Assembly (NCBI GenBank): GCA_903939515.1 | Contig: CAJAHH010000031.1 | Location: forward strand, 62,001-126,000 | Direction: 5' to 3' | DNA: 64,000 nucleotides | From: an uncultured Verrucomicrobiota bacterium | Lineage (GTDB): Bacteria; Verrucomicrobiota; Verrucomicrobiia; Limisphaerales; UBA9464 | In this document: in pieces, positions 5,186-27,191 of the stretch | How positions within the stretch are numbered: the first letter of the stretch is position 1 | Layout: every line of letters starts with the position of its first letter | Made by a program: the position numbers and the translations under genes | The notes under the pieces: generated by a model | Databases searched by the model: none | Told to the model about the DNA's origin: nothing | What the model saw: the letters and a program-made list of their open reading frames with translations, nothing else

Positions 5186-6889
<1,704 letters not shown>

Positions 6890-9054: not shown

Positions 9055-9840
9055 ATGAGATCTCGCAGTCCATCCTCTTCCTGCCCTCCGGCCCTTCACC
9101 GGAAGGTGGCTGCGTTCACCTTGCTCGAACTGCTGGTGGTGATGTCCATCATCGGCATTCTGGCGGGCATGGTCGTGGGTTTGGCGCCGGCGGCTGCGGC
9201 CAAGATGAAAGAAGCTCGGGTACGCGCCGAACTCCAACAATTGGTAACGCTGATCGAGGCCTACAAATCCCGCTTCGGAGTTTATCCGCCCGATGGCGTC
9301 CGAAGGGTTTCGATCGCGGGCCAGGGTTTTCAGACCTTGTCCAATCCCGCCTTGAGTCCCCTCTTCTACGAATTGTCCGGCGTGTACCTGACCAACGCCA
9401 ACAGCGTTGATGGTTACTTCATCCCGCGTGCCGATGCCGACGACGGCGACGGCATCCGTTCGGGCGAGTTGCAAACGTGGTTTGGTCGTGAGGGCATTCT
9501 CAACGCCAAGCCCTATGAGTTGCGCAACCGGTTGTTCGTCTCCGATTTCAAGGAAGGTCAATATGCCGAGGTTTTCCGCAACCGCTCCGATGCCGGGTAC
9601 GCCGACATCGAGGTGCTCGCCGTGGGTTTCTCCTCCGATGCCTCCGGAAAGCGGCAAAACGGTCTGGCTTGGCCCAACAACCGAACCGACCACCCCGTGC
9701 CCTCCAACAAGGGGCTCAACCCGTGGCGGTACGTCTCGACCAACCCGACCAATAATTCGGGCGGTTTCGATTTGTGGGCCGAAATCCCCGTCGGCCGTGA
9801 ACGAGTGAGGATCATCGGCAACTGGAAGGAATCCAACTAG
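9055..9840 (+). CDS. Pseudopilin with type IV prepilin leader
   Basis: The product has 261 residues. A 20-residue basic leader ends in VAA, followed by FTLLELLVVMSIIGILAGMVVG; cleavage is expected between A20 and F21, leaving Glu at +5 (E25). The remaining 220 residues are a soluble head with a GspG-like plan (LQQLVTLIEAYKSRFGVYPPDG and, near the end, GGFDLWAEIPVG). It is probably a major or minor subunit of the filament assembled by the upstream machine. The stop at 9838-9840 lies 71 bases before the next gene. Confidence 0.85.
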   Translation: MRSRSPSSSCPPALHRKVAAFTLLELLVVMSIIGILAGMVVGLAPAAAAKMKEARVRAELQQLVTLIEAYKSRFGVYPPDGVRRVSIAGQGFQTLSNPALSPLFYELSGVYLTNANSVDGYFIPRADADDGDGIRSGELQTWFGREGILNAKPYELRNRLFVSDFKEGQYAEVFRNRSDAGYADIEVLAVGFSSDASGKRQNGLAWPNNRTDHPVPSNKGLNPWRYVSTNPTNNSGGFDLWAEIPVGRERVRIIGNWKESN

Positions 9841-9911
9841 TGGCCTCCCTATCCTCGTTCCCCCAACACCGCCTTCCCGAAAACTCCCTTTTTAGCAGCG
9901 CCAGAGAACCT

Positions 9912-10691
9912 ATGAAGACTCGAACGACCGTCCAACGCCGGAGCGCCTTCACGCTCATCGAACTCCTCGTCGTCATTGCCATCATCGGCATCCTTGCGGC
10001 CATGTTGCTGCCGGCCATTGCCTCGGCGACAGCCAAGGCCAAGTCGGCCAAGGCCAAGGTCGAGGTCACGGGCATTGTCGGGGCGATCAACTCCTACCAG
10101 GCCGACTACTCCCGCCTGCCCGCCACCAAGCGGACCCGCGATGCCCACGGGCTGCCCACCCGTCCAGCGACCGCGCCCGACTGGATCTTCGGCAATGCCA
10201 ACACGCCCGATGCCAAGGGCGTTCTGCCCACTCAGACGGTGGCGACCAAGATCGGCTATCAGCAGGTGCGCGACCTAGGCAGCAGTGGCCGCGACGCCAA
10301 CAATTCTGAGGTCATCTCTATTCTCACCGCACAAATCGTTCCCGATGTGCAGGGCGAAATGGCCGATGCCGTCAACCTCAACAACAACCAGAATCCCAAG
10401 CGCACGGTGTATCTGGCTACCAAGGCCGTCGGTCGCAATCAGCCCAACGGCGTCGACGACCTGGGCGTGTACCGCGACCCGTGGGGGCATCCCTACATTT
10501 TCATCCTGGACCTCGACTATGACAGCCGCGTGCTGAGCCCGTTCCCGCTGGTGGCCACGGGCCGTCCGGCTCAGGCTCGCTACATTCCGGGCAATGCGCT
10601 GGTGATGTCGCTGGGACCGGACGGCAAGGCCGACTTCAACGCCGACCAAGATCACCCGAACAATCGCGACAACATTTACAGTTGGAAGTAA
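9912..10691 (+). CDS. GspG-like pseudopilin
   Basis: The product has 259 residues from ATG 9912. An in-frame GTG at 9840 is rejected because it would put 24 extra residues before the short basic leader. The leader MKTRTTVQRRSA precedes FTLIELLVVIAIIGILAAMLLPA, with cleavage expected at A12/F13 and Glu at +5 (E17). The head contains AINSYQADYSRLPATKR, a DPWGHPYIFILDLDYD segment like the calcium-site region of GspG, and ALVMSLGPDGKADFN near the end, common in type II major pseudopilins. This makes it the best candidate for the main structural subunit. Confidence 0.87.
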   Translation: MKTRTTVQRRSAFTLIELLVVIAIIGILAAMLLPAIASATAKAKSAKAKVEVTGIVGAINSYQADYSRLPATKRTRDAHGLPTRPATAPDWIFGNANTPDAKGVLPTQTVATKIGYQQVRDLGSSGRDANNSEVISILTAQIVPDVQGEMADAVNLNNNQNPKRTVYLATKAVGRNQPNGVDDLGVYRDPWGHPYIFILDLDYDSRVLSPFPLVATGRPAQARYIPGNALVMSLGPDGKADFNADQDHPNNRDNIYSWK

Positions 10692-10730: not shown

Positions 10731-11642
10731 ATGAAGCTCCAAGGACCCACCGGTTGCAGAATACCACTGGCCCCACGCCAGCGGTTTGCCGCCTTTACCC
10801 TCCTCGAGCTGCTGGTGGTGGTGGCGATCATCGGCCTCCTGGCGGGCGTTACTGTACCGGCGATTCGTGGCATGGTGCAGGGCAAGACTTTGTCGAGTGG
10901 GCACCGACAACTCACCGACGACCTGAACCGTGCCCGACAAGAGGCACTGCGTTTGCGAACCACCGTCTATGTGGTTTTTGCCCCGACCAATGTGTGGCAA
11001 ACGCGGATGGCACTCGATGCCCAGATTGAGTCGATGATTGTGGAGCGTCAGTTGGCCCCGCAGCGCTTCCGCGAGCAGGCCTTGCGCAGCTTCACCAATA
11101 TCGCTCTTGGCGTGTTTCACTCTTACGCGTTGTTGGTCGAGCGCGAGATCGGTGCCCAACCCGGCCGCAGCCACACCCGCTACCTCGGGCCTGGTTGGCA
11201 GATCTTGCCCGATGGCGTCATTCTTTCGCCCAAGCTCTTCCTCCCGGTGCCTTTGGCTCCCACCGACCGGCGGGATCTAGTCCTCCATGAATTGCCCCAA
11301 CGGCCGTTCCGGTTTCCGCTGGCCGAGTTCCCTGGCGACACCTTGCCGGCCATCCCCATGCGCTTCGTTGCTTTTGGCCCCGACGGCCGTTTAGCGCTGG
11401 CAGAGATGAATAGCCATTGGGCCCTCAATGGTCGGCCCGAGCTGCAATTACCGCCCTTGTCCGAGCTCGCCCTAGGTGTGGGGCAGGGCAGTGTCTTTAT
11501 CTCGCGGGACGCCGCCGGTCGAATCGACCCCACGGTCATGCCCGATGCCATCGAGACCCCACGCGACAATGCCACCAACAACCGGGTGATCGTCTCTAGC
11601 CTCACTGGCCGCTCCCGGATCCTCAAACCCGTCCTCCGCTGA
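10731..11642 (+). CDS. Verru_Chthon cassette protein D-like pseudopilin
   Basis: The product has 303 residues with a leader ending RFAA before FTLLELLVVVAIIGLLAGVTVPAI (A21/F22, Glu at +5), then SSGHRQLTDDLNRARQEALRLRTTVYVVFAP, as in GspH/FimT-type minor pseudopilins. Position and order (D, B, C, A) match the cassette described for Verrucomicrobium and Chthoniobacter. GspH-like proteins sit near the filament tip, but the cassette's role is unknown. The stop codon (TGA, 11640-11642) shares its final A with ATG 11642 of the next gene, a sign of translational coupling. Confidence 0.75.
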   Translation: MKLQGPTGCRIPLAPRQRFAAFTLLELLVVVAIIGLLAGVTVPAIRGMVQGKTLSSGHRQLTDDLNRARQEALRLRTTVYVVFAPTNVWQTRMALDAQIESMIVERQLAPQRFREQALRSFTNIALGVFHSYALLVEREIGAQPGRSHTRYLGPGWQILPDGVILSPKLFLPVPLAPTDRRDLVLHELPQRPFRFPLAEFPGDTLPAIPMRFVAFGPDGRLALAEMNSHWALNGRPELQLPPLSELALGVGQGSVFISRDAAGRIDPTVMPDAIETPRDNATNNRVIVSSLTGRSRILKPVLR

Positions 11643-12586
11643 TGAGAATCCCCGGCCAACCTGTTGCGTCTGTCTCGTGGAATCCCTTGCGGCTGCGCTT
11701 GCGCGGTCAGCCCTCCCGGTCCCTGCGCACCACGGCGGCCTTCACCATGATTGAGATCGCCCTGTGCATCGCCGTGGTGGCGATCGCCATGGTGGCCATC
11801 ATCGGTGTGCTTCCGGCGGGGCTCAATGTTCAGAAGCAGAACCGCGAAGAGTCGCTGCTGACCCAAGATGCCGAACTCCTGCTCAACGTCTTGCGTGGCG
11901 GGCAAACTCGGCTGCAAGACCTGCTGAACTATGCCGATCGCGTCACCCTCGTCCGCCAGTATCGAGACCGGGCACCGGCACGGACCAACCATTTTCATGG
12001 GCCGCTCGTTCAGGGCACTCCGGCTGGTTCTGATCCGCTGGTCGATGCCTTTCAAGTGTTGGGCCTTATTAGTCGACCCAAGTACACCCAAGAGGCTTCG
12101 TCGGTCAGTCGGGGCAATCCTGTGGCGGTCACCAACATCGTCCGCCTGGAGATGCGCTCCATGAGCGGTTCGATGGCCGACCACCCCATCATCCGAAAGA
12201 GCGAGCGCCGGACGCTGCCCAATGACAAGCGCATCGACTTCGCCTTCCGCTACCTAGTTACCTTCGAGACGGTGACTCGACAGTCCGTGTTGGTGCCGGG
12301 AGCCACTCAGTTGCCCACCGACGCCATGGCCGGCAGCGTCTCCGAGGTTCGCATGATTTTGGAGTGGCCTCTGCAACGCACCGGCACCGATCCCAACCAG
12401 TACCGCTTGGGATTCAACCGCCGGGAGTTTCGCACCGAGGTGCTGGGCCAACCGACGCGCTTGCGCGGCAATGTCCCTCAAGATCTCAGCTACTTCGGAG
12501 ACATCGCCTATCCCTTCAATCCGGTTCCGGAGACTCCGGGGCCTAACGTGATTCACTTCTACCGGTTCCTGCCGGGTGCCCTGTGA
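11642..12586 (+). CDS. Verru_Chthon cassette protein B-like pseudopilin
   Basis: The product has 314 residues. After a long basic leader (33 residues, ending TTAA) comes FTMIEIALCIAVVAIAMVAIIGVLPAGLNVQKQNREES, close to cassette B and PilV-type minor pilins, with Glu at +5 (E38). The head is unremarkable and ends in NVIHFYRFLPGAL. It is coupled to its neighbours by a one-base overlap upstream and a four-base gap downstream (12587-12590), so the cassette genes are probably made in fixed ratios. Confidence 0.78.
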   Translation: MRIPGQPVASVSWNPLRLRLRGQPSRSLRTTAAFTMIEIALCIAVVAIAMVAIIGVLPAGLNVQKQNREESLLTQDAELLLNVLRGGQTRLQDLLNYADRVTLVRQYRDRAPARTNHFHGPLVQGTPAGSDPLVDAFQVLGLISRPKYTQEASSVSRGNPVAVTNIVRLEMRSMSGSMADHPIIRKSERRTLPNDKRIDFAFRYLVTFETVTRQSVLVPGATQLPTDAMAGSVSEVRMILEWPLQRTGTDPNQYRLGFNRREFRTEVLGQPTRLRGNVPQDLSYFGDIAYPFNPVPETPGPNVIHFYRFLPGAL

Positions 12587-12590
12587 TCCT

Positions 12591-13724
12591 ATGAACCTTT
12601 CCCTTGTTCAAACGGGCACTGTGATGCGCTCCGACTTCCGGCAACCGCGGCGTCGCACCGGAGCCTTCTCCCTGCTGGAGTTGATGATCGCCGTGGGCTT
12701 GCTCACGCTCATTATTGCCGCGCTCTATGCGATGTTCGATCAGACCCAGAAGGCCTTCCGGCAGAGCTTGAACCAGGCCGACTTGTCCGAGGGTGGTCGC
12801 TCGGCCCTCGACCTCATGGTGCGCACTATTGAGCGGGCCGCCTCCCCTCAAGTGGAGGACGCGCTGCACCTGGTGGTGCGCCCCGCCAACGCCACCGGCT
12901 ACGAACTGGTGTTCGCCGGAGATGCCACCCAGGCCAATCGCACGCAACCGCTGCGCTTCGACGAACTGTTTTTCACTTATCCGGCCAGTGCAGGACGTTG
13001 GCATGTGGGCGGTCTCTTCATTGGCACTCTCGATGCAGGTCCCGTGGTCTCCACGCCGGTGCCTGGCCTGGGTTCGCTCTACCTCTACGACGAGGCGCTG
13101 CCCAACTCCAACCTCGTCCAAGTGCTCGACGGCCGAGGTAGCCTCGGGGCCCGTGTGCGAGATCTGGCCTCACCGGCCACCGTTCCGCCTTATCGACTCA
13201 CCGGCACTGCGGCGCTGCGGACCAACCTCATCACCGATCGCCTGCGGGTTCCGACGTATCCCGCCGGCGAGACCCGCGAAGCCCGTCGCGATGCGGTCAA
13301 ACTGCTGGAAGGGGTTCTTCAGTGCCGCATTACTGCCTTTGATGCCGATGGCCGGCCCTTTGATGCCAATCATCCGGTGCTTTACGATGTGAATTTCCCA
13401 CGGGTCGGTGTGAACACCAACGTGCCGCGCCACTACCCGGTCACCCCGGTCGCTTGGCGAAATCAAGTGGGTAATGTCTCACGCCCACTGCCCATCGAGG
13501 TGATTAACGTCAACTCGGACACCGCTCAGGTGAGCACCTTCTTCCGCGGACCCAATCTTCCGGCCTCCATCGAGATTGAAATCACCTTGCTTGATGGCAA
13601 GCAGTTGGATCAGTTCCGCTCCCTGCCGGACAATGTTCAAGCCCGCAACCGGTGGCTGGCGAACAACGCCGGCGCCCTCCAGACCCTCCGCCAGAGGGTC
13701 GTCCTCCGCACCGCGCCCCAATGA
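12591..13724 (+). CDS. Verru_Chthon cassette protein C-like (PilW/GspJ-type) pseudopilin
   Basis: From ATG 12591 the product has 377 residues; a GTG at 12576 would overlap the previous gene and adds nothing conserved. The leader ends RRTGA before FSLLELMIAVGLLTLIIAALYAMF (A25/F26, Glu at +5), then the Q-rich helix DQTQKAFRQSLNQADLSEGGRSALDLMVRTIERA, as in GspJ/PilW proteins. Minor pseudopilins of this class join the tip complex. It overlaps the following gene by ATGA at 13721-13724. Confidence 0.78.
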   Translation: MNLSLVQTGTVMRSDFRQPRRRTGAFSLLELMIAVGLLTLIIAALYAMFDQTQKAFRQSLNQADLSEGGRSALDLMVRTIERAASPQVEDALHLVVRPANATGYELVFAGDATQANRTQPLRFDELFFTYPASAGRWHVGGLFIGTLDAGPVVSTPVPGLGSLYLYDEALPNSNLVQVLDGRGSLGARVRDLASPATVPPYRLTGTAALRTNLITDRLRVPTYPAGETREARRDAVKLLEGVLQCRITAFDADGRPFDANHPVLYDVNFPRVGVNTNVPRHYPVTPVAWRNQVGNVSRPLPIEVINVNSDTAQVSTFFRGPNLPASIEIEITLLDGKQLDQFRSLPDNVQARNRWLANNAGALQTLRQRVVLRTAPQ

Positions 13725-16700
13725 AACGCCTTTCCCCCCAATCCAGCCGGCGCGGTGTGGCGCTGGTCATCACCCTGATCATGCTGTCGGTGGTGACCAT
13801 CACCGCCGTCGCCTTCCTGATGGTGGCCCGCCGCGAGCGATCCGCCGTGGCCGCGGCCGGTGAGCAGGCCGATGTGCGCATCGCCGCCGATGCCGCGCTG
13901 AACCGCGCCCGCGCCCGGATCTTGGCTCAGATCGCTTCGTCAGGAATGCGGGAGTCGCCCACGCTGTTCGTTTCCACGAATTTCATTGCTCCGTTTTATA
14001 CTCGGGGCCTCACCGCCGCCGGCCAGGGGTTGCCGTTGGGCGCTGCACTGTCCAACCAATGGTACTCGGCACTGGCCAATGTTTCTTACTTGTACCAGGG
14101 CCGCCCGTTCGACCTGAACAACACGGCCGAGATCCTCGAATACCGGCGAATGCTGGCCAATTTGTATTACGACCCGCGAGTCCCGGTGGTCGCTCGCATT
14201 GGACGCATGGACACTCGGGTGGATTCTTTCGAAGACCGCTTTTACCTCGACCTCAATCGCAACGGGCGCTTCGAAACCAATGGTTATATCCTTCAGCGTG
14301 ATGTCGCCGGCCGGGCCATAGGTACCAACCGGGTTTGGCACGTGGGTGATCCCGAGTGGATCGGTGTGTTGGCCGATCCCGACCGCCCGCACTCGGGCAA
14401 CAATCGCTTCTTGTACCGCATTGCCTACCTGGTGGTTCCGGCCGATCAGACGGTCGACCTCAACTATGCCCATAATCAGGCCCGCAATCCGGATGCCACC
14501 TCCAGTCAGTTCTTCCGAAACCAGGGCGTAGCGCCTTGGGAACTCAACATGGCCGGCCTGTTCCGGGACCTGAACACCAACCTTTGGCAGACATACGCGT
14601 ACTCCACCAACGCGGCGAACACCGGCCTGACCTTCGAGCATGCCCTCAACCTCTGGACTCATCGCCGAGTGGCGACCGTGTCCGGCCGAGCCACTGCCCA
14701 AGACATTCTTACCGAAGACTCCCGCCCCCAGTTGGGGGCCGCCGGAGACACCGCCGCGGCCTCGCGGGTGCTGCCGCTCAACGGCGTGGATGACCTCTCC
14801 GATGGTCCACTCATCCAGAGCTTGGCCCAGGTACGAAATCCCCGCCTGCTCAATGACGGCGACAACGTCACTCGGCGTTGGTCTGGCGGTGATGTCGCCA
14901 ATCCCTACCTGACACCCTTCTCGCTGCTGAGTGATACGACGCTGCTCCCGTTGGGGGCCAACCGAGTCATTTGGACCAATCTCGATACCCGTCGCACTGC
15001 GTTTGCCGGCCAATTGGTTTCGACCGTCCAAGCCTCCAATTCCACCTACAACGCCTACACCTTTTACCGACTGCTCGGGTCGGTGGGCACCGACAGTTCC
15101 GATGGTCGCATTGAGATCGGTGTCGATCTGGCCAATCGCTACTACCGTCGGTCCAAGCTGAACCTGAATTATCAGGTGCTGGATGCGGAGGGGACCCAAT
15201 CTTACAGCGCCAATGTGGTCACCACCAATGGAGCATCCGGTAAGGATGCCCGTGCCACGGCATTGGTGCCCTGGACCGCCCGCACGTGGGTCTCGCTGGC
15301 GGGTGATCGTCTGCTGCGCAAGGAGTTTTCCAACGGCCTGCCCGAGTTGGGCAATTTCAACTTCTACGATCCAGCCAAACCCAGCTCCAAGCTGGCCGTG
15401 CCTAAGGCGAAGGAGGAGGTCGCTCACGGAGTCGCCATCGCCGGAAGCTACTGGGTAACTAACGCCGTGGGTTCCCGCGCGCAAAACAGAGTGGTCTCCA
15501 AGACCAACCACACCTGGTCGGCCAAGCTCCACCGGCTGCTTCAGTTGGCCGCCAACATTCATGAGGTGCGAACCAACATCGTGGGCGGGCTCAATTCGGA
15601 ACCCTTCCCCCCGCATGTCTTCCGTCCGACCTTCTACCGCGAAGATCAAGACGACCCGCGCAACCCGGGCAAGAAGCTGTCTGTCGTCCGCTTGGCCGGG
15701 CTGGAAGAAGTAACCAATGCATTCACCCAGGTGCTGAACACCGCCTGGACCAACTGGATGGATTTCGAGAATCCCATCGACGTGGCCAACTTGAGCACCG
15801 ATCCGTCGTTGCCCACCCGGACCAACGTCTTCGGCATTCCGTATCTCGTCGGCACCAAGCAGAACCAGACGGGCACCAATGCCCTGGGCTTGCCGAAGTT
15901 CAACGAAGCCTTCTGGCAAACCCGTGTGCGCACGGGTCGACGTCTGCTCCTCGAGCGCCAGCCCAATGGAGCCGTGCGCCCCACCAACGAGACGTCTTTG
16001 AGCGCCCTCGGTGTGGTGAAGTACGGTCAGTACACCTTCCAGGTCGTCAATACCGCGGCGGCGGAGGGTTGGAACTCCTACTTGCAGGCCTTCCCAGCCA
16101 ATCGCCCGTTGCGACTCATCGCTACCAACTGGACCGAGGTGTGCCTCTACGACGCCAGCCTGGCCACCGTCGCTCAGCCCTTGGGTCAACCGCTCTTCAT
16201 TCCCCAACCGCTCAATCCGAACCTGCCGCTGACCGTCCAGAACCCCATGGTGTACAACCGGACCAACTACTCACTGCAGGTAGGTAACGTTGTACGCATT
16301 GGTTCTGCCAGCGCCAAGTCTCGTTGGCTGGGAAGGGAATACATCCCAGCACTCAATACCAATACCAGCTTCGGCTTGGTGTATAATCCCGTGCTCGGCC
16401 GGGTCTTTCCGATCACCGAGACCAACAATCTCCTAGCCATGTTCCCCATGCCGGGGACTCGCCCCGACCGTTTGGTCCCAAAGTTGAACATAGCCGTCAC
16501 CAATCGGTTGGTCTTCGCAATCGTGGACGACAGTTTCGTCCCAGCGCGGTTGCTCGACTTCGTGAATCTTAAGAGTGGGGTCCTCGAGAGCAATCTGCTG
16601 GAAAATCTCAAGTACACGGCCGATGGAACACTGCCGGGGAATGCAGGCGATTCTGGTATCGATCAGGGTTTCGACAACACCGGTGGCAATCTGGGAGCTG

Positions 16701-18328
16701 GGGGCTCAGGGCTAGGTTCGATTACAGGGCCAATGCTTTGGCAATCATCCATCACCCAAAATGGTTTAATTCCATCTGGCTTTGAGGAGCAATTCAGAGC
16801 TTCCAAGAATCCCGATTTACTAAAATATGGATTGTGGAATACAAACGGTTTACCAGGCCAATTATCAGTGGATTCTCGATTGGAAGCTGCGTATGGATTG
16901 CAGGCTTTTCTGTATGGCATAAACACTGTGCCGAGAAGCGCTCAGGTGGTTGCGAGACGAGAATTAGATCGCTTATTGGCATCTGCAGGAAATATTAATG
17001 GCAATCGTATTCAAGTTGGTTTTAATCCAGTGAGTGATGTTTTTATTACTGAGCGACTTGTTGCAAATGATCCATTTGTTCACTACACAAAAGAAGATCT
17101 AGGGATAGGTTGTTTGGTGAACGCAATGCATAGCATATATCCCGGGTCTTGGAGGTTTTTAAAAGAGACTCCTGCAACTCTGGGAATGTCCATTGCAAAC
17201 GGGAGTGCGGTTCAGGCTGATTTAATAAATACAAATCTAGTTGCGAACTATATTGGAATAAAGCAATATGGAGCTTATGCCCCATGGGGTGTTACTGCGA
17301 ATCTTGGAATAGGTGATTCTACGGCAATCGTAAAGTTCGACATGGCCTACAAAGATCCGCTTGTCGCTGATAGTACTTCGTGGTCTTTCCCTACCTCTAC
17401 GAATGCTTTTGCATCAATCGGACAACTCGGAAGAATTCATCGTGGAACGCCTTGGCAGACAGTATACCTGAAAAGTTCAGTAGCCAATTTGGAGCCGACT
17501 CAAGACCTTCAAATACCATCATGGCCTAAGTGGTCGGGCAGCTACGGCACGCATCCCACCAATGACTGGGCGTTGCTCGATACGTTCTCCACGGCACTCA
17601 CCGAGAATGCTGGGCGTGGCCAGATCGGCGTCAATCAGACCAACTTGTCGGCCTGGTCGGCGATCTTGTCGGGGGTTCCAGCCCTGCGCCGGCTCAATAA
17701 TGACGGCAACAACTTGGTGGCCACCGTGCTGGATCCGGCCGGAGGCAATGGTGCCTCGCCCCTTCAGAAGATTGTCGCGGGTTATAGCACCAACGGCCCC
17801 AACGGCCTGTTCCGCCGCGGCATCGCATCGGGCTTCGTCCACACCAATGGTTGGCCGGGGGATTCGCTGGTCACCGTCACCGGACCTGACGGCAAGCCGC
17901 TCACCCTCCCCAAGGCACGCCGCGCACTGCCGCGGTTCCGGTCGGTTGGAGAAATTTGCTCGGTTGAGACGCTTTCGGTGGGTTCGCCGTTGTTGGAGAA
18001 CGTGGAGTACGACGAGGCCAACCCGGGCCGCTTCCGACCCGTGGCCGACGAAGTCGTCGAGCGCATCCCGCAGCAAATCCTCTCGCTGCTCAAGGCCGAG
18101 GAGCCGCGGTATATCATTTACGCGTGGGCTCAGACCTTGAAGCCAGCTCCGGGAGCGGTGGTTACCGCACCGGGTCCGTTCTTCGGCCTGTCCACCAATT
18201 ACGTTGTCACCGGCGAGTTCGCCACCAAGACCGTCTTGCGATTCGAGGGAGCCCTCTCCACGAACGCCCCGGTCACCCAAACCCTGCGCTCGGTGGTGGA
18301 AGACCACCGCGTGCTGACCACGGACTGA
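13721..18328 (+). CDS. Verru_Chthon cassette protein A-like (PilX/GspK-type N-terminus), 1535 aa
   Basis: ATG 13721 sits in an ATGA overlap with the previous gene; an upstream in-frame start at 13652 lies inside that gene and is not needed. The N-terminus (SSRRGVALVITLIMLSVVTITAVAFLMVARRERSA) is one hydrophobic helix like those of PilX and GspK, followed by ADAALNRARARIL. The rest is a large extracytoplasmic region rich in Asn and Thr with no domain recognised. Near the C-terminus, IGQLGRIHRGTPWQTVYLK resembles the recurrent motif of cassette A proteins. The segment at about 16740-17525 is much more AT-rich than the rest of the gene yet stays in frame. It may cap the tip of the pseudopilus or hold a client. 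Confidence 0.75.
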   Translation: MKRLSPQSSRRGVALVITLIMLSVVTITAVAFLMVARRERSAVAAAGEQADVRIAADAALNRARARILAQIASSGMRESPTLFVSTNFIAPFYTRGLTAAGQGLPLGAALSNQWYSALANVSYLYQGRPFDLNNTAEILEYRRMLANLYYDPRVPVVARIGRMDTRVDSFEDRFYLDLNRNGRFETNGYILQRDVAGRAIGTNRVWHVGDPEWIGVLADPDRPHSGNNRFLYRIAYLVVPADQTVDLNYAHNQARNPDATSSQFFRNQGVAPWELNMAGLFRDLNTNLWQTYAYSTNAANTGLTFEHALNLWTHRRVATVSGRATAQDILTEDSRPQLGAAGDTAAASRVLPLNGVDDLSDGPLIQSLAQVRNPRLLNDGDNVTRRWSGGDVANPYLTPFSLLSDTTLLPLGANRVIWTNLDTRRTAFAGQLVSTVQASNSTYNAYTFYRLLGSVGTDSSDGRIEIGVDLANRYYRRSKLNLNYQVLDAEGTQSYSANVVTTNGASGKDARATALVPWTARTWVSLAGDRLLRKEFSNGLPELGNFNFYDPAKPSSKLAVPKAKEEVAHGVAIAGSYWVTNAVGSRAQNRVVSKTNHTWSAKLHRLLQLAANIHEVRTNIVGGLNSEPFPPHVFRPTFYREDQDDPRNPGKKLSVVRLAGLEEVTNAFTQVLNTAWTNWMDFENPIDVANLSTDPSLPTRTNVFGIPYLVGTKQNQTGTNALGLPKFNEAFWQTRVRTGRRLLLERQPNGAVRPTNETSLSALGVVKYGQYTFQVVNTAAAEGWNSYLQAFPANRPLRLIATNWTEVCLYDASLATVAQPLGQPLFIPQPLNPNLPLTVQNPMVYNRTNYSLQVGNVVRIGSASAKSRWLGREYIPALNTNTSFGLVYNPVLGRVFPITETNNLLAMFPMPGTRPDRLVPKLNIAVTNRLVFAIVDDSFVPARLLDFVNLKSGVLESNLLENLKYTADGTLPGNAGDSGIDQGFDNTGGNLGAGGSGLGSITGPMLWQSSITQNGLIPSGFEEQFRASKNPDLLKYGLWNTNGLPGQLSVDSRLEAAYGLQAFLYGINTVPRSAQVVARRELDRLLASAGNINGNRIQVGFNPVSDVFITERLVANDPFVHYTKEDLGIGCLVNAMHSIYPGSWRFLKETPATLGMSIANGSAVQADLINTNLVANYIGIKQYGAYAPWGVTANLGIGDSTAIVKFDMAYKDPLVADSTSWSFPTSTNAFASIGQLGRIHRGTPWQTVYLKSSVANLEPTQDLQIPSWPKWSGSYGTHPTNDWALLDTFSTALTENAGRGQIGVNQTNLSAWSAILSGVPALRRLNNDGNNLVATVLDPAGGNGASPLQKIVAGYSTNGPNGLFRRGIASGFVHTNGWPGDSLVTVTGPDGKPLTLPKARRALPRFRSVGEICSVETLSVGSPLLENVEYDEANPGRFRPVADEVVERIPQQILSLLKAEEPRYIIYAWAQTLKPAPGAVVTAPGPFFGLSTNYVVTGEFATKTVLRFEGALSTNAPVTQTLRSVVEDHRVLTTD
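16740..17525 (+). other. AT-rich, foreign-looking segment inside the cassette A gene
   Basis: Hand counts on single 60-base stretches give G+C of 23/60 at 16801, 20/60 at 17041 and 17/60 at 17221, against 38/60 at 17641. Codons rare elsewhere in this window (TTA, ATA, AGA, AAT) are frequent in it. The frame is not interrupted and recognisable cassette A sequence runs on through its right end, so this looks like an allelic replacement or a relaxed-constraint region, not an insertion. Both edges are gradual to within about 50 bases. Confidence 0.6.
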
Positions 18329-18350: not shown

Positions 18351-21300
18351 ATGCGCCCGTTTCGAAGCCTGATTATTGCCATCGCCTTGGCGGTGGGTTC
18401 CCTGGGGCTGTACCGCTGGGTACAGCCACCCGCCGTGGACCCCGCTTCCTCGGCCTCCGGGCTCACCGCGCCGCCCGCCGGCCCTGCCGTGGCCTCGGCC
18501 TTCGGTCGCTCATTGGCCGTCTCGGCCCATGTGGCCGCCAAGCGCCTGCGGGTTCGCCCGCTCACGGCTGGCCAGCTCCCAGCACCGCAGGATTCTGAAT
18601 TTCCTTGGCGCTCCAGCAACACCACGAAGACGGTGGATCAGTTGAGGAACGATCCGCGCGCCTTGGTGCTGCGCAATGCCCTGATAGATACTCGCACGGG
18701 CGAACCGCTGCCGTTGCCCGAGTCGCTGGTGGCGGGCCCAGAACCGGGTTTCCACATTGTTCAATTCGCTCAGGAGCCCGATGCGGGGTCCCGTCGTCGA
18801 TTGGAAGAGCAGCAGTTGCACGTCGTCTCGTACCTGCCGGTCAATGCCTTCCTGGTGAAGGGTTCCGATGAGTCGGTCGAGCGCTTGGCCCTCGACGCCG
18901 ACATCGCTTCGGTCTCGCCCTGGCATCCCGCCTTCAAACTCGAACCAGAACTGCTCACTCAAGTTATCGACGGTCGGCCGCTGGAGGCGGGTGATCGCCT
19001 CATGCTCTCCCTGACCGATCCCGATGCCTTTCCGCGTTTGGAGTCGCTCGGGGTTCGTGAGGTCACTCGTCAGCGCAGCCCGTTCGGCACGCTGGTCACG
19101 GTGGATGTGCCGCCCGACGCGCTCCTCGCGCTGGCTCAATCGCCCGAGGTGCATTTGATCGAAAAGGCCCACCGCCGCGAACTGCTCAATGATCGCTCGG
19201 CCTACCTGCTCGGGAGCGCCACGGATATTACCAACACGGCGTCCTACCGGGGTCTCACTGGCAGCAACGTGGTGATTAATGTCAATGACTCGGGTATCGA
19301 CTGGACTCACCCCGACCTCACCACCAACCGCGTCTTCACGGTCGGATCCCAGACCAACCTCCTGACCGACCGCGACGGCCACGGGACCCACGTGGCCGGG
19401 ACCATCGCCGGCAGCGGGGTTCGTTCGCGCGAGATCCAGGGGCCCGCCCAGGGTTCGGTGACCAATGCTCAGTTCCGTGGTCATGCCCCCAACGCCAAGC
19501 TCTTCATCCTGCCCATCGACCTCCAGACCGGCCCGACCATCTCGGATGCCTTCTTGCAGGAGCAGGCCGCCATGACCAATGCCCTCATCTCCAACAACAG
19601 TTGGGGCTATCGGGGCGCTTACGAGTACAACTCTATTTCGGCCAGTTACGATGCTGCCTCGCGGGATGCCTTGCCCGAAACCTCGGGTGAGCAACCGGTG
19701 CTCTTCGTCTTCGCCGCCGGCAACTCCGGACAAGGCGGCAACAATGGTGTCGGCGGTTTGCGCGGGTCGGTGACCGCACCGGGCAACGCTAAGAACGTGA
19801 TCACCGTGGGTGCGCTCGAAACCAAGCGCAACCTCACCAACGCGGTGGTGACCGACGATGAAGGCCATGTGATCTGGGCGGGCGGGAAGCAATTTCGTGA
19901 ACCGAGCACCAATGCCGAATTGACCACCAACCTGGTGCTCCGCGCCAGCACCGACACCGACACCGAAGTGGCCAATTTCTCTAGCCGCGGCAATGTGGGC
20001 ATTGGCATCGAAGGCAGTTACGGCCGCTTCAAGCCCGACGTGGTTGCGCCTGGTTCTCAAATTCTCTCAGCGCGCTCGGCCCAGTGGAAACTCGAAGACG
20101 AATACGACACCAATTCGGTGCAGTACTCCCTGTTCGACGACCTCAACCGCCCGGTGGCCCCGTGGTACCGATTTTTGTCCGGCACCAGTATGGCCGCACC
20201 GGCCGTGTCGGGCCTGTTGGCTCAAATCCAGGAGTTCTGGCATCGCCCCGGTATCAAATTGCCGAGGTACATTGAGGCAGCGGCCTACAAGGCGTTGTTA
20301 ATTAACAGCGCTCGTCCCTCGTCCGATATTTACGCACCCAACTTCCGCTCGGTGATGAACTACGCAGGGTGGGGGCAGCCCAGTTTGCCGCGCGCCCTCG
20401 ACAGCGGGGTGCGCCTGAGCCGCGCCGACGGGGCGATCGTGGAGTTGGCGGGTTTCGCTGGTGAACTCACCACCGGGGCCAGTCAATCACTGCGATTGAA
20501 GCTCACCACCAACGAGGTGTCCGCCACGGGTGCGTTTCACTTCACGCTGGTGTGGACCGATCCTCCAGGCAATCCGGCTGCCGGTCTTAAGTTGGTCAAT
20601 GATTTAGACCTCATCGTGTCCAACACCGTGACGGGTGAGGTGTTCGTCGGTAACGACATGGCACGCACCGGATATACTGCCGGTCGACCGGGCACCAATG
20701 CCTTCGAGGTGGTGGAGGTAGGTGTGACCAATTCGATCTTCGATTCGGTCAATAATGTGGAGCGCGTGGTGCTCGAACCCCCGCTGGCCAGCGAGTACAT
20801 CATCCAGGTGGTGGCGCGTCGGGTGAACGTCAACGCTCTGGCCTCTCGCGAAGTTCAGAATCTCCAGAACCGCACCAACATCGTTCAGGACTTCGTGGTG
20901 GCCCTCTCGTCGGACGCGGCCACGGGCAACGACATCGTGGCCACAGCCGAGTACGTCAGCGGGTCGTCGGGTGGTTTTGGGCCCATCCAACCGCCCGCGG
21001 TTTCTGTGGTGGCCACCAATGGCATTCCAGTTTCGGCTTCCCGGGTCGGGGCACAGTCTCCCTTGGTCGGTGGTGCGGTGGGGCAAGCCGCTCAATGGCA
21101 TTTCTTCGTCTTCACTAACCTCTTCAATCCCGAGGCGGCGGCGGTCACCGGATTGACCAACGGCCAGTACGTTGAGTTTGTCATTTCCTCGGCCGCCAAC
21201 CTGGCCCGTCCGCGCGGACCCGGGGCCTCAGGAAACCGCCTGCGTGACCGTGTTCTGGGACCGGACTTGGATTTGTACATGTCTACGGATCCAGGCCTGA

Positions 21301-24300
21301 CCAACCTCCAGGCCTCAGCACTGGCCTCGGCGTATCGTTCCACCCAGCAGGGGTTCGAGGAGCGCATTGAGATCACCAACGCCCCGGCCACGGGCGAGGT
21401 GTATTACATCGGCGTGAAGGCCGAAGATCAGCAGGGCGGTGAATTTGAATTGGTGATTCGCAGCAGCGATCAGCCCTTCCACGTCCAGGGAGCCAATGGC
21501 TACAGCCTGCTCATGACCCCCATTGGCGGCGGGCGCTCCATTCCCGACGGCAGCCCGGATGCGCCGGGCGTGGTCCGCTATTTCGGCACGGGTCCCTCCG
21601 GGATTACTCGCAACGTGACCTTCATTCAGTCCCTCGGGCACGACAACTTCTTCGACCTCCAAGGCACCCTCCTCCACGCAGGGTACGGAGTGACCATTAA
21701 CAATCGCCGGTCGATTCGTGATTACGGTACAGGATTGACCCAGGCATCCGGTCCGGTCATGGGACTTTACGACGACATCCCAGGCTTGCGCTTCCCTGGC
21801 GGTCAGCCGTCCGACGGTCCCAGTACCACCCTCCTCGACTTCGCAGGTTTGGGCAGCATGGGTTCGTGGAATTACCTCCTGCAGGATGACGTTTTGGGCA
21901 ATTCTGGTACTCTCAACTCGGTACAGCTTCAGGTGCAGCCGCAGGTGCTGCCGGCCTTCGAAGAGCGTGTCTTCGAGAACGTCTGTGTCCCGCCGCGGGG
22001 CTACGATTTCCGTCTGCGCATCGTGCCTCCGGATGCCAGTCGACTCATTATTGAGGTGACCAACATGGTCCCCGCCAACCTCCCGCTGGAGGTGTACATT
22101 CGCCGCGAAGCGTTCCCCGACCCCGACAATTTGGAGGCCAACGACCGCGTGGCGACGTTGCTCGGGCCCGGCATCATAAGCATTTCCGTGCGGGACGTTC
22201 CCGCCCTCCAGGCTGGCACCTACTTCGTGCTTTTCCACAACCCGTCCGGGGTGGAGCTCTGCTTTGATGTCGCCATCTACGGTGAGCGCAATTTGTCCTC
22301 GAAGTTTACCCGTACCATTGAAGGGGGGTCGGCTTCCTTAGCTGATGTCGCCCGGACGGTGACTTCGGTTCAGGTCGATGATGCGCGGCCGGTTTCCGAT
22401 GTGCAGGTGGGTGTCCGGGTCGAACACGCCCGCGTCTCCGATCTGGCCCTGCGTTTGGTGACTCCCGGCGGCGCAAGCGCGTTGCTCTTCGAGAACCGCG
22501 GACTCACCACCACCAACGGCTTGGGTGGCGTTCTCGTCACTAGCAACTACCAGCACGTGGCCTTGTCGCTCGATCGTGCCGGAGGGGTGGCTCGCATTTA
22601 CTTCAATGGTGAGGTGGTGGCCGAACAGTTGGTCCGGCTTTCGGCCAGCAATTCTCCGACCTCGTTCCACCTCGGCTCTTTGGGTTCGGCCAACCTACCG
22701 GGTAGCCCCATTCAATTGGACGACTTCGGACTCTGGCGTCGCTCCATCCGCGAGACCGAGATCCGCAAAATCTATGAAGAGGGATCCTTCGGTCGTGCCA
22801 AGGCAACCAATTTGGCCAGTGCTGGGTTGGCGGCGCTCTGGCCCATGGACCGCTTCGGTTTGGATACCATCGCCGGTCAGACCATTAGCAGCGTGGGCGC
22901 CACCGTGGCGGGTCAGATGAATTTTGGTATGCGCCAGCCAGGCACCGGCACCGGAGCCATCTCCACCGACTCCCGCATTCGGGAAATCGGCAATCTTCCG
23001 GGGATTACTCTGGAAGGATGGATCAAACCGGTCTCCGGCAACGAACGTCTGGTGGTTGGCGGGTGGTACGATGCGGCCAAAAAGCGCACTGGGCCGGTCT
23101 TATTGATCGGTCAATCGGCTCCCTGGGGCAATGGTCCGGGATCGCTGAGTGCCGTCTTCCAAGATGAGGCGGGCAACCCAGTGATGTTGAGTACCCGTGC
23201 GGGCGTGTTCCCGGCCGGAGGGGTCATTACCAATCGGGCGTTTGCGATTTTCGGCGACAGCACCAACGGGGTCTACACGCCGATCAAGTTTGCTCAGCCT
23301 CCGTACTTGAGTCGGATTGTGCCGCAGGTGCTGTACTCCAATGATTGGGAGACGGTCACCTCCGGGGATTTCGCATCGGGAACCAACAGCCTTGAAGGAT
23401 GGATCGTGATGACCAATCGGGTTTCGATCTTGGTCGGTGGCAGAGAAGGCCAGGTGCTCGACCTCCGCAATGCGGCGGTGGAACGTCAGTTCGACCTCAA
23501 CATCGGTCAGGCTTATCGATTGGCCTTCACCAGTCGAAAATCTCCCGCTGCAAAGACCGCGGTGAATGCCCAAGTCTGGGTCGATGGCGGATTCAATTTG
23601 CGGGTGGACAGCACGCCGGACTGGGTCACCAACACGACTTCCTTTGTCGCAAAGTCCTCACGCACCGCCGTTGGCTTCGTGGCAACCTCGCCCCCAAATT
23701 CCGCCACCAACTTCCCGTCGGGTCTGGAGATTGGGCAAGTTTGGCTCGATCAGGATGGCGCTCCGCTGGTCTATCAACCGGAAGAACCGCTGCGCCCACT
23801 CATGGGTCAGCCCGGCACCGGGTTGTGGGAACTGCAGACGACCGATGCTCGAGGTGGTGAAGCGGGCCTCCTGCTGGACTGGCAGTTGCGCTTCACCTTC
23901 ATGCCCACCAATCCGCCGACCTTCCTGCTGACCAATGGCATAGCCTTCACCACCAACATCGTGGGCGAGGACATTCGCTACTTTCTGGTGGATGTTCCGC
24001 TGGAGGCCGAACGGGCCACCAACACGTTGATCAATCTTTCAGGCGGTCTGCTCTCGATGCTCTACAGCGCCTCTGGTTTGCCAGATCCCACGGAGTCCGA
24101 CACGGTGACGGTGGTTTCCGGCCTGCCGGCAGGTCGCTTCTCTGCGAGCACTCTCGACATTAATCTTCCGCCGTTGCTTCCGCGTGGGCAGCGCTATTAT
24201 TTGGCGGTGCGGGGCGCTGGTGGAACCTCCTCCAATGAGTTTTCCATCCAAGCGGACTTCGGTGTCCGTATCACCCCGCTGACCAACCGCGTCGCCATTC

Positions 24301-27191
24301 GGGTCACCAATACCGCTCCCATTTTGCAGGAGTATTATTCCTATCAAGTGCCCGCCAGCAACGTCTTGGGGGTTACCTTCACGGTGTCGGGCGCGACGGG
24401 AGATGTGGATTTGTACGCCATTCGGGCTCCCAAGCTGCCGGGTGTTGGCCAGTATGACTACGCTTCCGCCACGCCGGGGACCACCAACGAGACTCTGGTT
24501 ATTCACTTGGACAGCCAACCGGTGCCCTTGGCTCCGGGTCTGTGGTATTTGTCGGTGACCAACACCACGGGCATTCCTGGGACCTCCTATACTATCTCCG
24601 CCATCGAGCAGCGTGGCCGCATCCAAGAGTTGAAGCCGGGTCAATCCATCACAGCCAGCCATCCGGGGACCGACGAGGACTTCTATTACGTCACCCTGCC
24701 GACAGACGTATCCGCATTGCGGGTGCGGACCCGTGGGGCCACCGAGGACCTGGTCTTGAGTTCGCGCAGCCGATTGCCCGTGCCGACGGCCACCAACTTT
24801 GAGTACCAAAGTAACAAGGCCAATTCCGGGGACGAGGACCTCTTGATGACGACCAATTCGACGCCGGTGGCTTTGGCGGGCGGGCGTTGGTATTTCGCGG
24901 TCACCAGCGTGGATGGTTTGCCCACTCCCTACACCATCTCGGCCGAACTCCGACTTCGGGATGCGGTCTTCCAGACGCTCACCAATGAGATTTGGTTCGA
25001 GGCCGTGGCCACCAACGGGCCGGTCGATTTGGAATTCATTTACCGGAACCCGGGCGATGTCTCCGCGATCACCTTTGAACTCGATCAGCTGACCGGAGAG
25101 GCCGATATGACCGTGAGCCCGGATGAGCCGCTGCCCTTGTCCCCGGTCTCCTTTGCGAATACTCAGCCCGGCACGCTGTCGGAGCGGGTGACGGTCTTGG
25201 CTGGACGTGATTTGCCCTCGTTGGGCCGCGACTGGTACTTGCGAGTCCGCCTGCCGTCGACCGGAGTCCGTTTCCGCATTCGCGCCAGCCTGAACCGTCC
25301 GCCGGTTTGGACTCCCGTAGCAACCCGCCGGGTCACTGAAGGGTTGCGCCTCACCTTCAACCTCAAGGCGACCGATCCAGATCCTATCCCCCAGCCCATC
25401 ACCTACGGTCTGGTGGAGGGTCCGGTGGGGCTCACCGTGAGCACCAATGGTGTGGTGACTTGGATTCCTTCTGAGGCTCAGGGACCTAGCACCAATCTCG
25501 TACTGGTTTTTGCGAGCGACGGGGCGATATCGTCCACCCTTCAGTTCGTGATCATCGTGGCGGAGCGCAATCAGCCGCCAGTCTGGATCAACCCCGGCAC
25601 CCGCCGTGTCATCGAGGGGTTGCAGTTGACCTACGCATTGAAAGCCAGTGACGCCGACCTGCCGGTTCAGACGTTGAGCTACACGTTGGTCAGCGGTCCG
25701 GAGGGGCTCACTGTGAACACCAACGGTGTGATGAATTGGCAACCGACCGAGGCGCAGGGACCGAGCACGAACCGGGTGAGCGTGAGCGTGAGCGACGGTG
25801 TGGTGTCCGTGCCGCAGGAATTCGACGTGGTCGTTTTGGAGTCCAACCGACTGCCGGTGTGGGTGACGTTCGTTACGACGCGGCGCGTGGCCGAGGGATC
25901 GCCTCTGACCTTCACTGTGCAGGCCACAGACAGCGACCTTCCGGCACAGAGGTTGATCTATCGTCTAGTCAATGGTCCTACAGGACTCGTGGTAACGACC
26001 AACGGAGTGGTGTCTTGGACGCCGACCGAAGCCCAGGGCCCGAGCACCAATCGGGTTCGAATCGGGGTGACCGATGGCGTGGCCAATATTTCTCAGGAGT
26101 TCGACATTATCGTGGTTGAGCGCAATCAGCCGCCGGTGTGGACCAACCCCGGCACCCGACGGATCACCGAAGGGTTGCAATTGACCTACGCATTGAACGC
26201 CAGCGATGCCGATTTGCCCGTTCAGACGCTGAAGTTCACTTTGGTCAGCGGTCCGGAGGGGCTCACTGTGAACACCAACGGTGTGATGAGTTGGCAACCG
26301 ACCGAGGCGCAGGGACCGAGCACGAACCGGGTGACCGTGAGCGTGAGCGACGGTGTGGTGTCCGTGCCGCAGGAATTCGACGTGGTGGCCTTGGAGTCCA
26401 ACCGACTGCCGGTGTGGGTGACGTTCATCACGACGCGGCGTGTGAGCGAGGGATCGCCTCTGAACTTTACTGTGCAGGCCACGGACAGTGACCTTCCGGC
26501 ACAGAAGTTGATCTATCGTCTGATCAATGGTCCTACAGGACTCGTGGTAACGACCAACGGAGTGGTGTCTTGGACGCCGACCGAAGCCCAGGGACCGAGC
26601 ACCAATCGGGTTCGAATCGGGGTGACCGATGGCGCGGCCAATATTTCTCAAGAGTTCGACATCATCGTGGTTGAGCGCAACCAGCCGCCGGAGTGGACCA
26701 ACCCCAGCACCCGCCGAGTCACCGAGGGGTTGCAGTTGACCTTCACCTTGAAGGCCACCGACCCCGATCTGCCGGTTCAGACCTTGAGATACACTCTGGA
26801 GCAGGGGCCGACCGGTCTGAAGGTGGCCACCAATGGTGTGCTTTCGTGGAAACCGACCGAGGCGCAGGGTCCGAGCACGAACCGCGTGACCGTCCGTGTG
26901 AGCGACGGAGTTGTCTCGGTGACCCAAGACTTCAATATCGTGGTGATCGATTCTCCGGCCGGCGCGGCCAAGCTGACGTTGGTTCAGTCTTCTGGGGGTG
27001 ATTTCGAGCTGCACTTCGTAGGGCCCTTTGGTGCCCAGTACATTCTCGAACAAAGCGTTTCCGCCAATGGGCCGTGGTTGCCAGTGCCCACTGTGCAGAA
27101 GCCGCTCACCACCACAGGTGCGACCACCGTTCTGAAGGTTGCGCTGCCGGCGACGGCGAGCACGAGCTTCTACCGATTCGTTAAACCGTAG
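18351..27191 (+). CDS. Giant secreted subtilisin-like (S8) protein, 2946 aa
   Basis: An N-terminal signal peptide or anchor (RSLIIAIALAVGSLGLY) is followed by an inhibitor-like propeptide to about residue 280. The S8 catalytic domain has Asp313 in NDSGIDWTHPDL, His344 in DGHGTHVAGT, the oxyanion-region AAGNSG near 455, and Ser613 in GTSMAAPAVSG, so it should be active. Then come a P-type domain (about 1080-1215), a second P-type domain split by a LamG-like and a jelly-roll-like region (about 1337-1853), PPC-like domains (about 1880-2310), six cadherin/putative-Ig-type repeats (about 2313-2870) and a final 70-residue module ending SFYRFVKP. It begins 22 bases after cassette A and may be a client of that machine, though a Sec signal alone could suffice. 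Confidence 0.88.
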   Translation: MRPFRSLIIAIALAVGSLGLYRWVQPPAVDPASSASGLTAPPAGPAVASAFGRSLAVSAHVAAKRLRVRPLTAGQLPAPQDSEFPWRSSNTTKTVDQLRNDPRALVLRNALIDTRTGEPLPLPESLVAGPEPGFHIVQFAQEPDAGSRRRLEEQQLHVVSYLPVNAFLVKGSDESVERLALDADIASVSPWHPAFKLEPELLTQVIDGRPLEAGDRLMLSLTDPDAFPRLESLGVREVTRQRSPFGTLVTVDVPPDALLALAQSPEVHLIEKAHRRELLNDRSAYLLGSATDITNTASYRGLTGSNVVINVNDSGIDWTHPDLTTNRVFTVGSQTNLLTDRDGHGTHVAGTIAGSGVRSREIQGPAQGSVTNAQFRGHAPNAKLFILPIDLQTGPTISDAFLQEQAAMTNALISNNSWGYRGAYEYNSISASYDAASRDALPETSGEQPVLFVFAAGNSGQGGNNGVGGLRGSVTAPGNAKNVITVGALETKRNLTNAVVTDDEGHVIWAGGKQFREPSTNAELTTNLVLRASTDTDTEVANFSSRGNVGIGIEGSYGRFKPDVVAPGSQILSARSAQWKLEDEYDTNSVQYSLFDDLNRPVAPWYRFLSGTSMAAPAVSGLLAQIQEFWHRPGIKLPRYIEAAAYKALLINSARPSSDIYAPNFRSVMNYAGWGQPSLPRALDSGVRLSRADGAIVELAGFAGELTTGASQSLRLKLTTNEVSATGAFHFTLVWTDPPGNPAAGLKLVNDLDLIVSNTVTGEVFVGNDMARTGYTAGRPGTNAFEVVEVGVTNSIFDSVNNVERVVLEPPLASEYIIQVVARRVNVNALASREVQNLQNRTNIVQDFVVALSSDAATGNDIVATAEYVSGSSGGFGPIQPPAVSVVATNGIPVSASRVGAQSPLVGGAVGQAAQWHFFVFTNLFNPEAAAVTGLTNGQYVEFVISSAANLARPRGPGASGNRLRDRVLGPDLDLYMSTDPGLTNLQASALASAYRSTQQGFEERIEITNAPATGEVYYIGVKAEDQQGGEFELVIRSSDQPFHVQGANGYSLLMTPIGGGRSIPDGSPDAPGVVRYFGTGPSGITRNVTFIQSLGHDNFFDLQGTLLHAGYGVTINNRRSIRDYGTGLTQASGPVMGLYDDIPGLRFPGGQPSDGPSTTLLDFAGLGSMGSWNYLLQDDVLGNSGTLNSVQLQVQPQVLPAFEERVFENVCVPPRGYDFRLRIVPPDASRLIIEVTNMVPANLPLEVYIRREAFPDPDNLEANDRVATLLGPGIISISVRDVPALQAGTYFVLFHNPSGVELCFDVAIYGERNLSSKFTRTIEGGSASLADVARTVTSVQVDDARPVSDVQVGVRVEHARVSDLALRLVTPGGASALLFENRGLTTTNGLGGVLVTSNYQHVALSLDRAGGVARIYFNGEVVAEQLVRLSASNSPTSFHLGSLGSANLPGSPIQLDDFGLWRRSIRETEIRKIYEEGSFGRAKATNLASAGLAALWPMDRFGLDTIAGQTISSVGATVAGQMNFGMRQPGTGTGAISTDSRIREIGNLPGITLEGWIKPVSGNERLVVGGWYDAAKKRTGPVLLIGQSAPWGNGPGSLSAVFQDEAGNPVMLSTRAGVFPAGGVITNRAFAIFGDSTNGVYTPIKFAQPPYLSRIVPQVLYSNDWETVTSGDFASGTNSLEGWIVMTNRVSILVGGREGQVLDLRNAAVERQFDLNIGQAYRLAFTSRKSPAAKTAVNAQVWVDGGFNLRVDSTPDWVTNTTSFVAKSSRTAVGFVATSPPNSATNFPSGLEIGQVWLDQDGAPLVYQPEEPLRPLMGQPGTGLWELQTTDARGGEAGLLLDWQLRFTFMPTNPPTFLLTNGIAFTTNIVGEDIRYFLVDVPLEAERATNTLINLSGGLLSMLYSASGLPDPTESDTVTVVSGLPAGRFSASTLDINLPPLLPRGQRYYLAVRGAGGTSSNEFSIQADFGVRITPLTNRVAIRVTNTAPILQEYYSYQVPASNVLGVTFTVSGATGDVDLYAIRAPKLPGVGQYDYASATPGTTNETLVIHLDSQPVPLAPGLWYLSVTNTTGIPGTSYTISAIEQRGRIQELKPGQSITASHPGTDEDFYYVTLPTDVSALRVRTRGATEDLVLSSRSRLPVPTATNFEYQSNKANSGDEDLLMTTNSTPVALAGGRWYFAVTSVDGLPTPYTISAELRLRDAVFQTLTNEIWFEAVATNGPVDLEFIYRNPGDVSAITFELDQLTGEADMTVSPDEPLPLSPVSFANTQPGTLSERVTVLAGRDLPSLGRDWYLRVRLPSTGVRFRIRASLNRPPVWTPVATRRVTEGLRLTFNLKATDPDPIPQPITYGLVEGPVGLTVSTNGVVTWIPSEAQGPSTNLVLVFASDGAISSTLQFVIIVAERNQPPVWINPGTRRVIEGLQLTYALKASDADLPVQTLSYTLVSGPEGLTVNTNGVMNWQPTEAQGPSTNRVSVSVSDGVVSVPQEFDVVVLESNRLPVWVTFVTTRRVAEGSPLTFTVQATDSDLPAQRLIYRLVNGPTGLVVTTNGVVSWTPTEAQGPSTNRVRIGVTDGVANISQEFDIIVVERNQPPVWTNPGTRRITEGLQLTYALNASDADLPVQTLKFTLVSGPEGLTVNTNGVMSWQPTEAQGPSTNRVTVSVSDGVVSVPQEFDVVALESNRLPVWVTFITTRRVSEGSPLNFTVQATDSDLPAQKLIYRLINGPTGLVVTTNGVVSWTPTEAQGPSTNRVRIGVTDGAANISQEFDIIVVERNQPPEWTNPSTRRVTEGLQLTFTLKATDPDLPVQTLRYTLEQGPTGLKVATNGVLSWKPTEAQGPSTNRVTVRVSDGVVSVTQDFNIVVIDSPAGAAKLTLVQSSGGDFELHFVGPFGAQYILEQSVSANGPWLPVPTVQKPLTTTGATTVLKVALPATASTSFYRFVKP
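25569..26678 (+). repeat. Two tandem 555-bp coding repeats (Ig-like domain pairs)
   Basis: Units 25569-26123 and 26124-26678 each encode 185 residues, a pair of Ig-like domains beginning NQPPVW and NRLPVWVTF. A partial third unit starts at 26679. The units are near-identical for long stretches at the DNA level, including AACACCAACGGTGTGATGA and GGACTCGTGGTAACGACCAA. The period of exactly 555 keeps the frame, so copy number could change by recombination without breaking the protein. Confidence 0.85.

Follow-up and report, generated by a model that had tools for sequence, protein, structure and literature searches.

The window, by which we mean the whole 64,000-nucleotide stretch of DNA analysed here (60.9% G+C), carries on its forward strand a series of pilus and secretion genes that ends in an unusually long pseudopilin gene. 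Two PilB/GspE-like ATPases (2215-3936 and 5186-6889) and a PilC/GspF protein (6938-8293) are encoded by assembly genes, together with a PilT-like ATPase (4052-5161; assigned to PilT from the absence of an MshEN domain). Downstream follow a GspG/GspH-like pseudopilin with a prepilin motif (9055-9840), a GspG-like pseudopilin (9840-10691), and pseudopilins with sub-threshold matches to cassette D or GspH (10731-11642), cassette B or GspI (11642-12586) and cassette C or GspJ (12576-13724). The next gene (13721-18328), referred to here as the giant pseudopilin gene, encodes 1,535 amino acids (AAs) from an ATG at 13721; its open frame starts with a GTG at 13652, which would give 1,558 AAs. The ATG is the likely start, judged by its overlap with the stop of the preceding gene (ATGA) and by the typical prepilin leader it yields (SSRRG/VALVITLIML).

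With the giant gene ends the pseudopilin series of an operon that resembles those of type IV pili and type II secretion. Weak matches order the pseudopilins as G-, H- (cassette D), I- (cassette B), J- (cassette C) and K-like (cassette A), and apart from general prepilin motifs the pseudopilin family matches fall below curated cut-offs. The giant protein scores 12.5 bits against GspK (NF037980), which does not reach the curated cut-off of 130, and 15.2 bits against TIGR02600 (Verru_Chthon cassette protein A; cut-off 332.3), over positions 1-57 of 1296 only. Its prepilin helix (RRG/VALVI) is without Glu at +5, and it stands at the end of a G-H-I-J-K order in which its neighbours are mostly below cut-off as well; GspK lacks Glu5. 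Two AlphaFold runs covering both parts of the protein gave low-confidence models (pLDDT 59 and 40), and a Foldseek search of the PDB with the first of these low-confidence models returned no match with E <0.001. Within the phrases tried, we found no literature on this cassette. Homologs of the giant pseudopilin occur in 54 of the 59 genomes searched, with one copy of the gene per genome; the host genus consists mostly of lake Verrucomicrobiota known from metagenome bins, and the G+C content of the gene ranges across it from ~51% (G008, G009) to ~69% (G010, G016). Directly after the pilin-like gene lies a giant subtilase-family protein (18351-27191; 2,946 AAs) with Ig/cadherin-like repeats, which also adjoins the pilin-like gene in congeners and is possibly a substrate or partner of the pilus system.

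The 3' half of the giant gene contains an AT-rich segment of ~840 bases (16685-17527, forward strand; AAs ~1012-1292 of the protein, P0001). A sliding 785-bp scan placed the lowest G+C content of the window at 16738-17522 (42.7%, z -6.4), with the runner-up stretch at 53.6%, and GC3 falls from 0.761 in the upstream flank to 0.348 in 16649-17527 before rising to 0.801 in the downstream flank. Codon choice shifts with it: TTA makes up 8 of 28 Leu codons inside the segment vs. 0 of 118 outside, ATA 7 of 18 Ile codons vs. 1 of 34, and AGA 4 of 11 Arg codons vs. 1 of 90. The open frame (13652-18328) runs uninterrupted across the segment, without a stop or frameshift. The first-pass annotation had described all of this closely: its ~785-bp segment at 16740-17525 was right within a few bases, its drop from ~60% to 17 of 60 G+C compares with 16 in the poorest 60-mer, and its codon shift toward TTA, ATA and AGA, its unbroken frame and its sharp return of composition near 17525 were all borne out; a refinement of the 5' edge is given below. 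We also scanned 464 kb of the window's own genome (the window included) for the minimum GC3 per 100 codons in long frames. The AT-rich segment reached 0.26 and the next frame 0.40, and no comparable interior dip was found in the other long frames of these 464 kb; of the next five low-GC3 frames four were inspected, and their dips fall at the beginning of a stop-to-stop frame, probably ahead of the actual gene start.

In a codon alignment of the genus, in which all genomes are metagenome bins, the AT-rich version is carried only by the genome of the window (G000) and one congener (G014). In the other 13 congeners whose sequence spans the region (partly so for G002), deep branches included, GC3 there is at its usual level for each; this holds also for two native-type congeners with ~51% G+C in the giant pseudopilin gene. 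Presence of the AT-rich stretch in all relatives, which the first-pass annotation had tied to an ancient constraint, was thus not observed, and a constraint from mRNA structure was set aside because the stretch is missing from relatives. Against its close relative G017, G000 has a DNA identity of 86-100% up to 16234 (40-codon windows), 37-77% across 16685-17520 (20-codon windows) and again 92% from 17555. At four-fold sites the identity of this pair is 0.21 in the segment, near saturation, vs. 0.82 and 0.78 outside. The two carriers, on the other hand, share ~92% DNA identity in the segment overall (windows 83-97%), and their four-fold-site identity is 0.83 in the segment vs. 0.83 and 0.86 outside. 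The segment keeps 35 of 37 positions at which at least 95% of the other family members agree, and between the carriers AA identity (0.91) exceeds four-fold-site identity (0.83); because of this, the patch appears to be a functional homologous portion of the protein. Among native alleles the region of the segment is no more variable than the remaining gene. The alternative suggestion of the first-pass annotation, exchange of a surface-exposed variable domain, found no support, since the segment is not more variable among native alleles and holds family-conserved motifs; a hypervariable-domain reading was set aside on the first of these grounds.

The two edges of the segment differ in form. The 3' edge is sharp, at ~17527, and the GC-rich 3' flank (17528-18328, forward strand) is again near G017 and G014. 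At the 5' end the transition is graded: the sequence begins to diverge from close relatives at ~16235, still at normal GC, and the drop in GC begins at ~16685. Within this upstream shoulder (16235-16684, forward strand), which has near-normal GC but is diverged from close relatives, four-fold-site identity between G000 and G017 is 0.47 vs. 0.82 farther upstream, and both carriers are already diverged from the rest. The shoulder probably belongs to the same exchanged tract or to an earlier one; there may have been one exchanged tract of ~1.3 kb whose first third is GC-rich, or two adjoining exchanges.

Trees built on the segment and on its surroundings disagree, as do the site patterns, which is what the alignment and tree check proposed in the first-pass annotation was to look for, and its reading of recombination with a foreign allele, here an AT-rich version present in one congener only, held up. 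For the quartet G000, G014, G017 and G005, 298 of 299 informative segment sites support the pairing of G000 and G014; in 1000 permutations, no clustering as extreme as that seen arose. In the tree of the 5' flank, G000 is basal to a tight group with G017, G005, G014 and G001, with branch lengths of ~0.01-0.04 substitutions per site; in the segment protein tree, G000 and G014 sit on a branch of 1.0 substitutions per site, outside ten native rows. Constraining G000, G014, G017 and G005 together in the segment tree was rejected (p-AU 0.019). A wider constraint on a ten-row group (the AT-rich alleles and part of the native ones) was not rejected at 5% (p-AU 0.071), and because it survives, the depth of the donor branch is unsure. 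Elsewhere the carriers part company: the rpoB region tree places G000 at the base of the group and nests G014 among G005 and G001, the pil operon tree joins G014 to G017, and G000 and G014 are sisters in neither. The allele is common to G000 and G014 and missing in G017 and G005, while the trees lack a G000-G014 sisterhood; therefore either two allele types were retained or there was further exchange. The gene thus shows the two required marks of a mosaic gene formed by homologous allele replacement, namely a break in composition and divergence within an intact frame and a conflict between trees; a donor allele in another lineage would be a helpful further mark but is not needed.

A second patch lies farther downstream in the same gene. 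G018 carries a different AT-rich allele (G018:C113, L032:2113-2520) at the counterpart of ~17645-18030, in what is GC-rich 3' flank in G000, and G003, the sister of G018, has native sequence at this site. Among native alleles, it is this downstream region that shows the greater variability. The G005 contig ends just within a patch of the G018 type (G005:C16, L009:3682-3741): 421 of its last 441 bases match G018, with hardly a mismatch in the final 260, and the protein of G005, a species of another group (that of G000), is identical to that of G018 over the initial 20 residues of the patch. Just upstream in the gene, G005 and G018 are only ~70-92% identical, and the G000 group and G018 share ~89% identity in conserved regions. 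As far as these sequences can tell, the shared start of the patch looks like the product of a recent interspecies exchange. Both AT-rich segments (that of G000 and G014 and that of G018) branch beside native alleles of the larger clade, and one unsampled low-GC lineage could have been the donor of both. The giant pseudopilin gene has been patched by recombination at least twice in the genus, with patches common to different species. Two further observations concern allele variation in the bins. In G002, two diverged versions of one stretch (AAs ~1180-1221) meet at a contig junction (G002:C26, the end of L008, and G002:C82, L033:1-94), which suggests population allele polymorphism or a mixed bin; in G003, contigs L015 and L034 overlap in the gene (AAs 533-736) and are non-identical, a sign of strain mixture.

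We conclude that the segment is very probably an allele fragment that homologous recombination carried in from an unsampled bacterium of lower GC, a member of the same genus or of a sister lineage, and that was then kept in, or passed between, species. Under this reading, incoming DNA would have aligned with the resident copy at conserved blocks, namely the WSGSYGTHPTNDW stretch at ~17527 on the downstream side and a conserved stretch before 16685 on the upstream side, and ~0.85-1.3 kb would have been replaced; the protein would have stayed whole because the replacement was in frame. The replacement would be old, as synonymous divergence between the G000 and G014 copies is on a par with that in the rest of the gene. 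G017 and G005 branch between G000 and G014 yet are without the segment, so both allele types would have been kept through speciation or re-exchanged between species; the sharing between species could also stem from an ancient polymorphism. We infer a donor lineage from within or beside the genus. Searches of the family, of 320 genomes of the order, of GTDB and viral contigs and of phage and plasmid records gave no close donor, and the best match to the segment apart from G014 has 60% AA identity and lies within the genus. The likely route of entry is natural transformation, given that the genome encodes ComEC, DprA and a pilus that includes a PilT-like ATPase. ComEC and DprA occur in G000 and in nearly all members, and in a search whose controls included Escherichia coli they were found also in bacteria outside the classic transformers; their presence allows natural transformation and is no proof of it.

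Several other explanations would leave some of the same traces. An ancient two-type polymorphism native to the genus, kept by balancing selection (e.g. through tip-binding phages) and involving no foreign low-GC donor, would account for a type that is common to non-sister species, for G000 and G014 copies as diverged as the backbone, and for a divergence between types that is saturated at synonymous sites. We nevertheless consider it unlikely, as a GC3 of 12-48% in a lineage with genes near 72% points to long residence in a low-GC genome, and the type is missing in the other congeners checked, deep branches included. Rapid evolution in place, with the segment drifting AT-rich in one lineage without recombination, fits the retained open frame and the retention of most family-conserved residues; it is highly improbable in view of a branch of ~1.0 vs. 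~0.01-0.04 in the 5' flank that is common to two non-sister species, the sharp 3' edge, and a rate of change between G000 and G014 inside the segment that matches the backbone, and the quartet pattern strongly disfavours it.

Every record is a metagenome bin and assemblies often break within the giant pseudopilin gene, so a chimeric contig or a binning error has to be weighed; the segment is, however, present in two separately assembled bins of different species, in each continuous with its own flanks, which makes such an origin very improbable too. Cassette switching of the kind known from pilin antigenic variation, with a silent copy elsewhere in the genome as the source, would suit a pilin-like gene whose patches recur in the 3' part, but DNA and protein searches of the own genome for a second or silent copy returned a single match. 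A copy could have been missed in a bin that is ~96% complete, and we give this explanation hardly any credence; the silent-cassette system of pilin antigenic variation was likewise rejected as a class for want of silent donor copies in the own genome.

A wider setting can be sketched tentatively. The 3' part of the gene might draw on a common stock of interchangeable allele blocks of ancient divergence, which pass between lake Verrucomicrobiota species and are maintained by balancing selection, e.g. from tip-binding phages, though we hold this to be rather less probable than its alternatives taken together. We infer, by analogy with known tip pseudopilins, that the giant pseudopilin may sit at the pilus tip, where the AT-rich patch would alter a surface-exposed tip domain under selection by phages or ligands. 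Should the protein be a pilus tip, the patches would mark its contact part, and the hypothesis of phage- or ligand-driven selection becomes testable; if not, this is an ordinary mosaic gene. In either case, the locus is a clear instance, in uncultured freshwater bacteria, of recombination between species within a single gene, and composition alone makes it visible.

Among known systems, GspK, the tip pseudopilin of type II secretion, is reported to form a tip complex with GspI and GspJ (PMC6561018, PMC6211770). The giant pseudopilin is like the GspK family (NF037980) in having a prepilin N-terminus without Glu at +5 and in coming last after G-, H-, I- and J-like pseudopilins; it differs in size (~1,535 AAs vs. 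~300) and in a score far under the family cut-off. The Verru_Chthon cassette A-D families (TIGR02600, TIGR02598, TIGR02599 and TIGR02596) offer a second parallel, in that successive genes match D, B, C and A weakly at the N-terminus, although no match here reaches a curated cut-off. ComZ of Thermus thermophilus is a GspK-like pilin whose size is much increased by a large inserted domain, and it has been proposed, on steric grounds, to act as a tip receptor of the competence pilus (PMC6561018). The two proteins share a pilin-like nature, a very large additional portion and a place in a pilus operon; we found no sequence or fold match between ComZ and the giant pseudopilin and do not claim a beta-solenoid for the latter. 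The closest likeness in kind of event is to mosaic genes made by interspecies homologous recombination, in which the same in-frame internal swap by a diverged homologous allele, the edges in conserved blocks and the sharing across species are seen. Such events are already well known, penA of Neisseria being an example; what the present locus adds is recurrence in one gene, sharing across species and a strong mark in base composition, and it differs from the known mosaic genes in that the hosts are uncultured freshwater Verrucomicrobiota and the change in base composition is very large.
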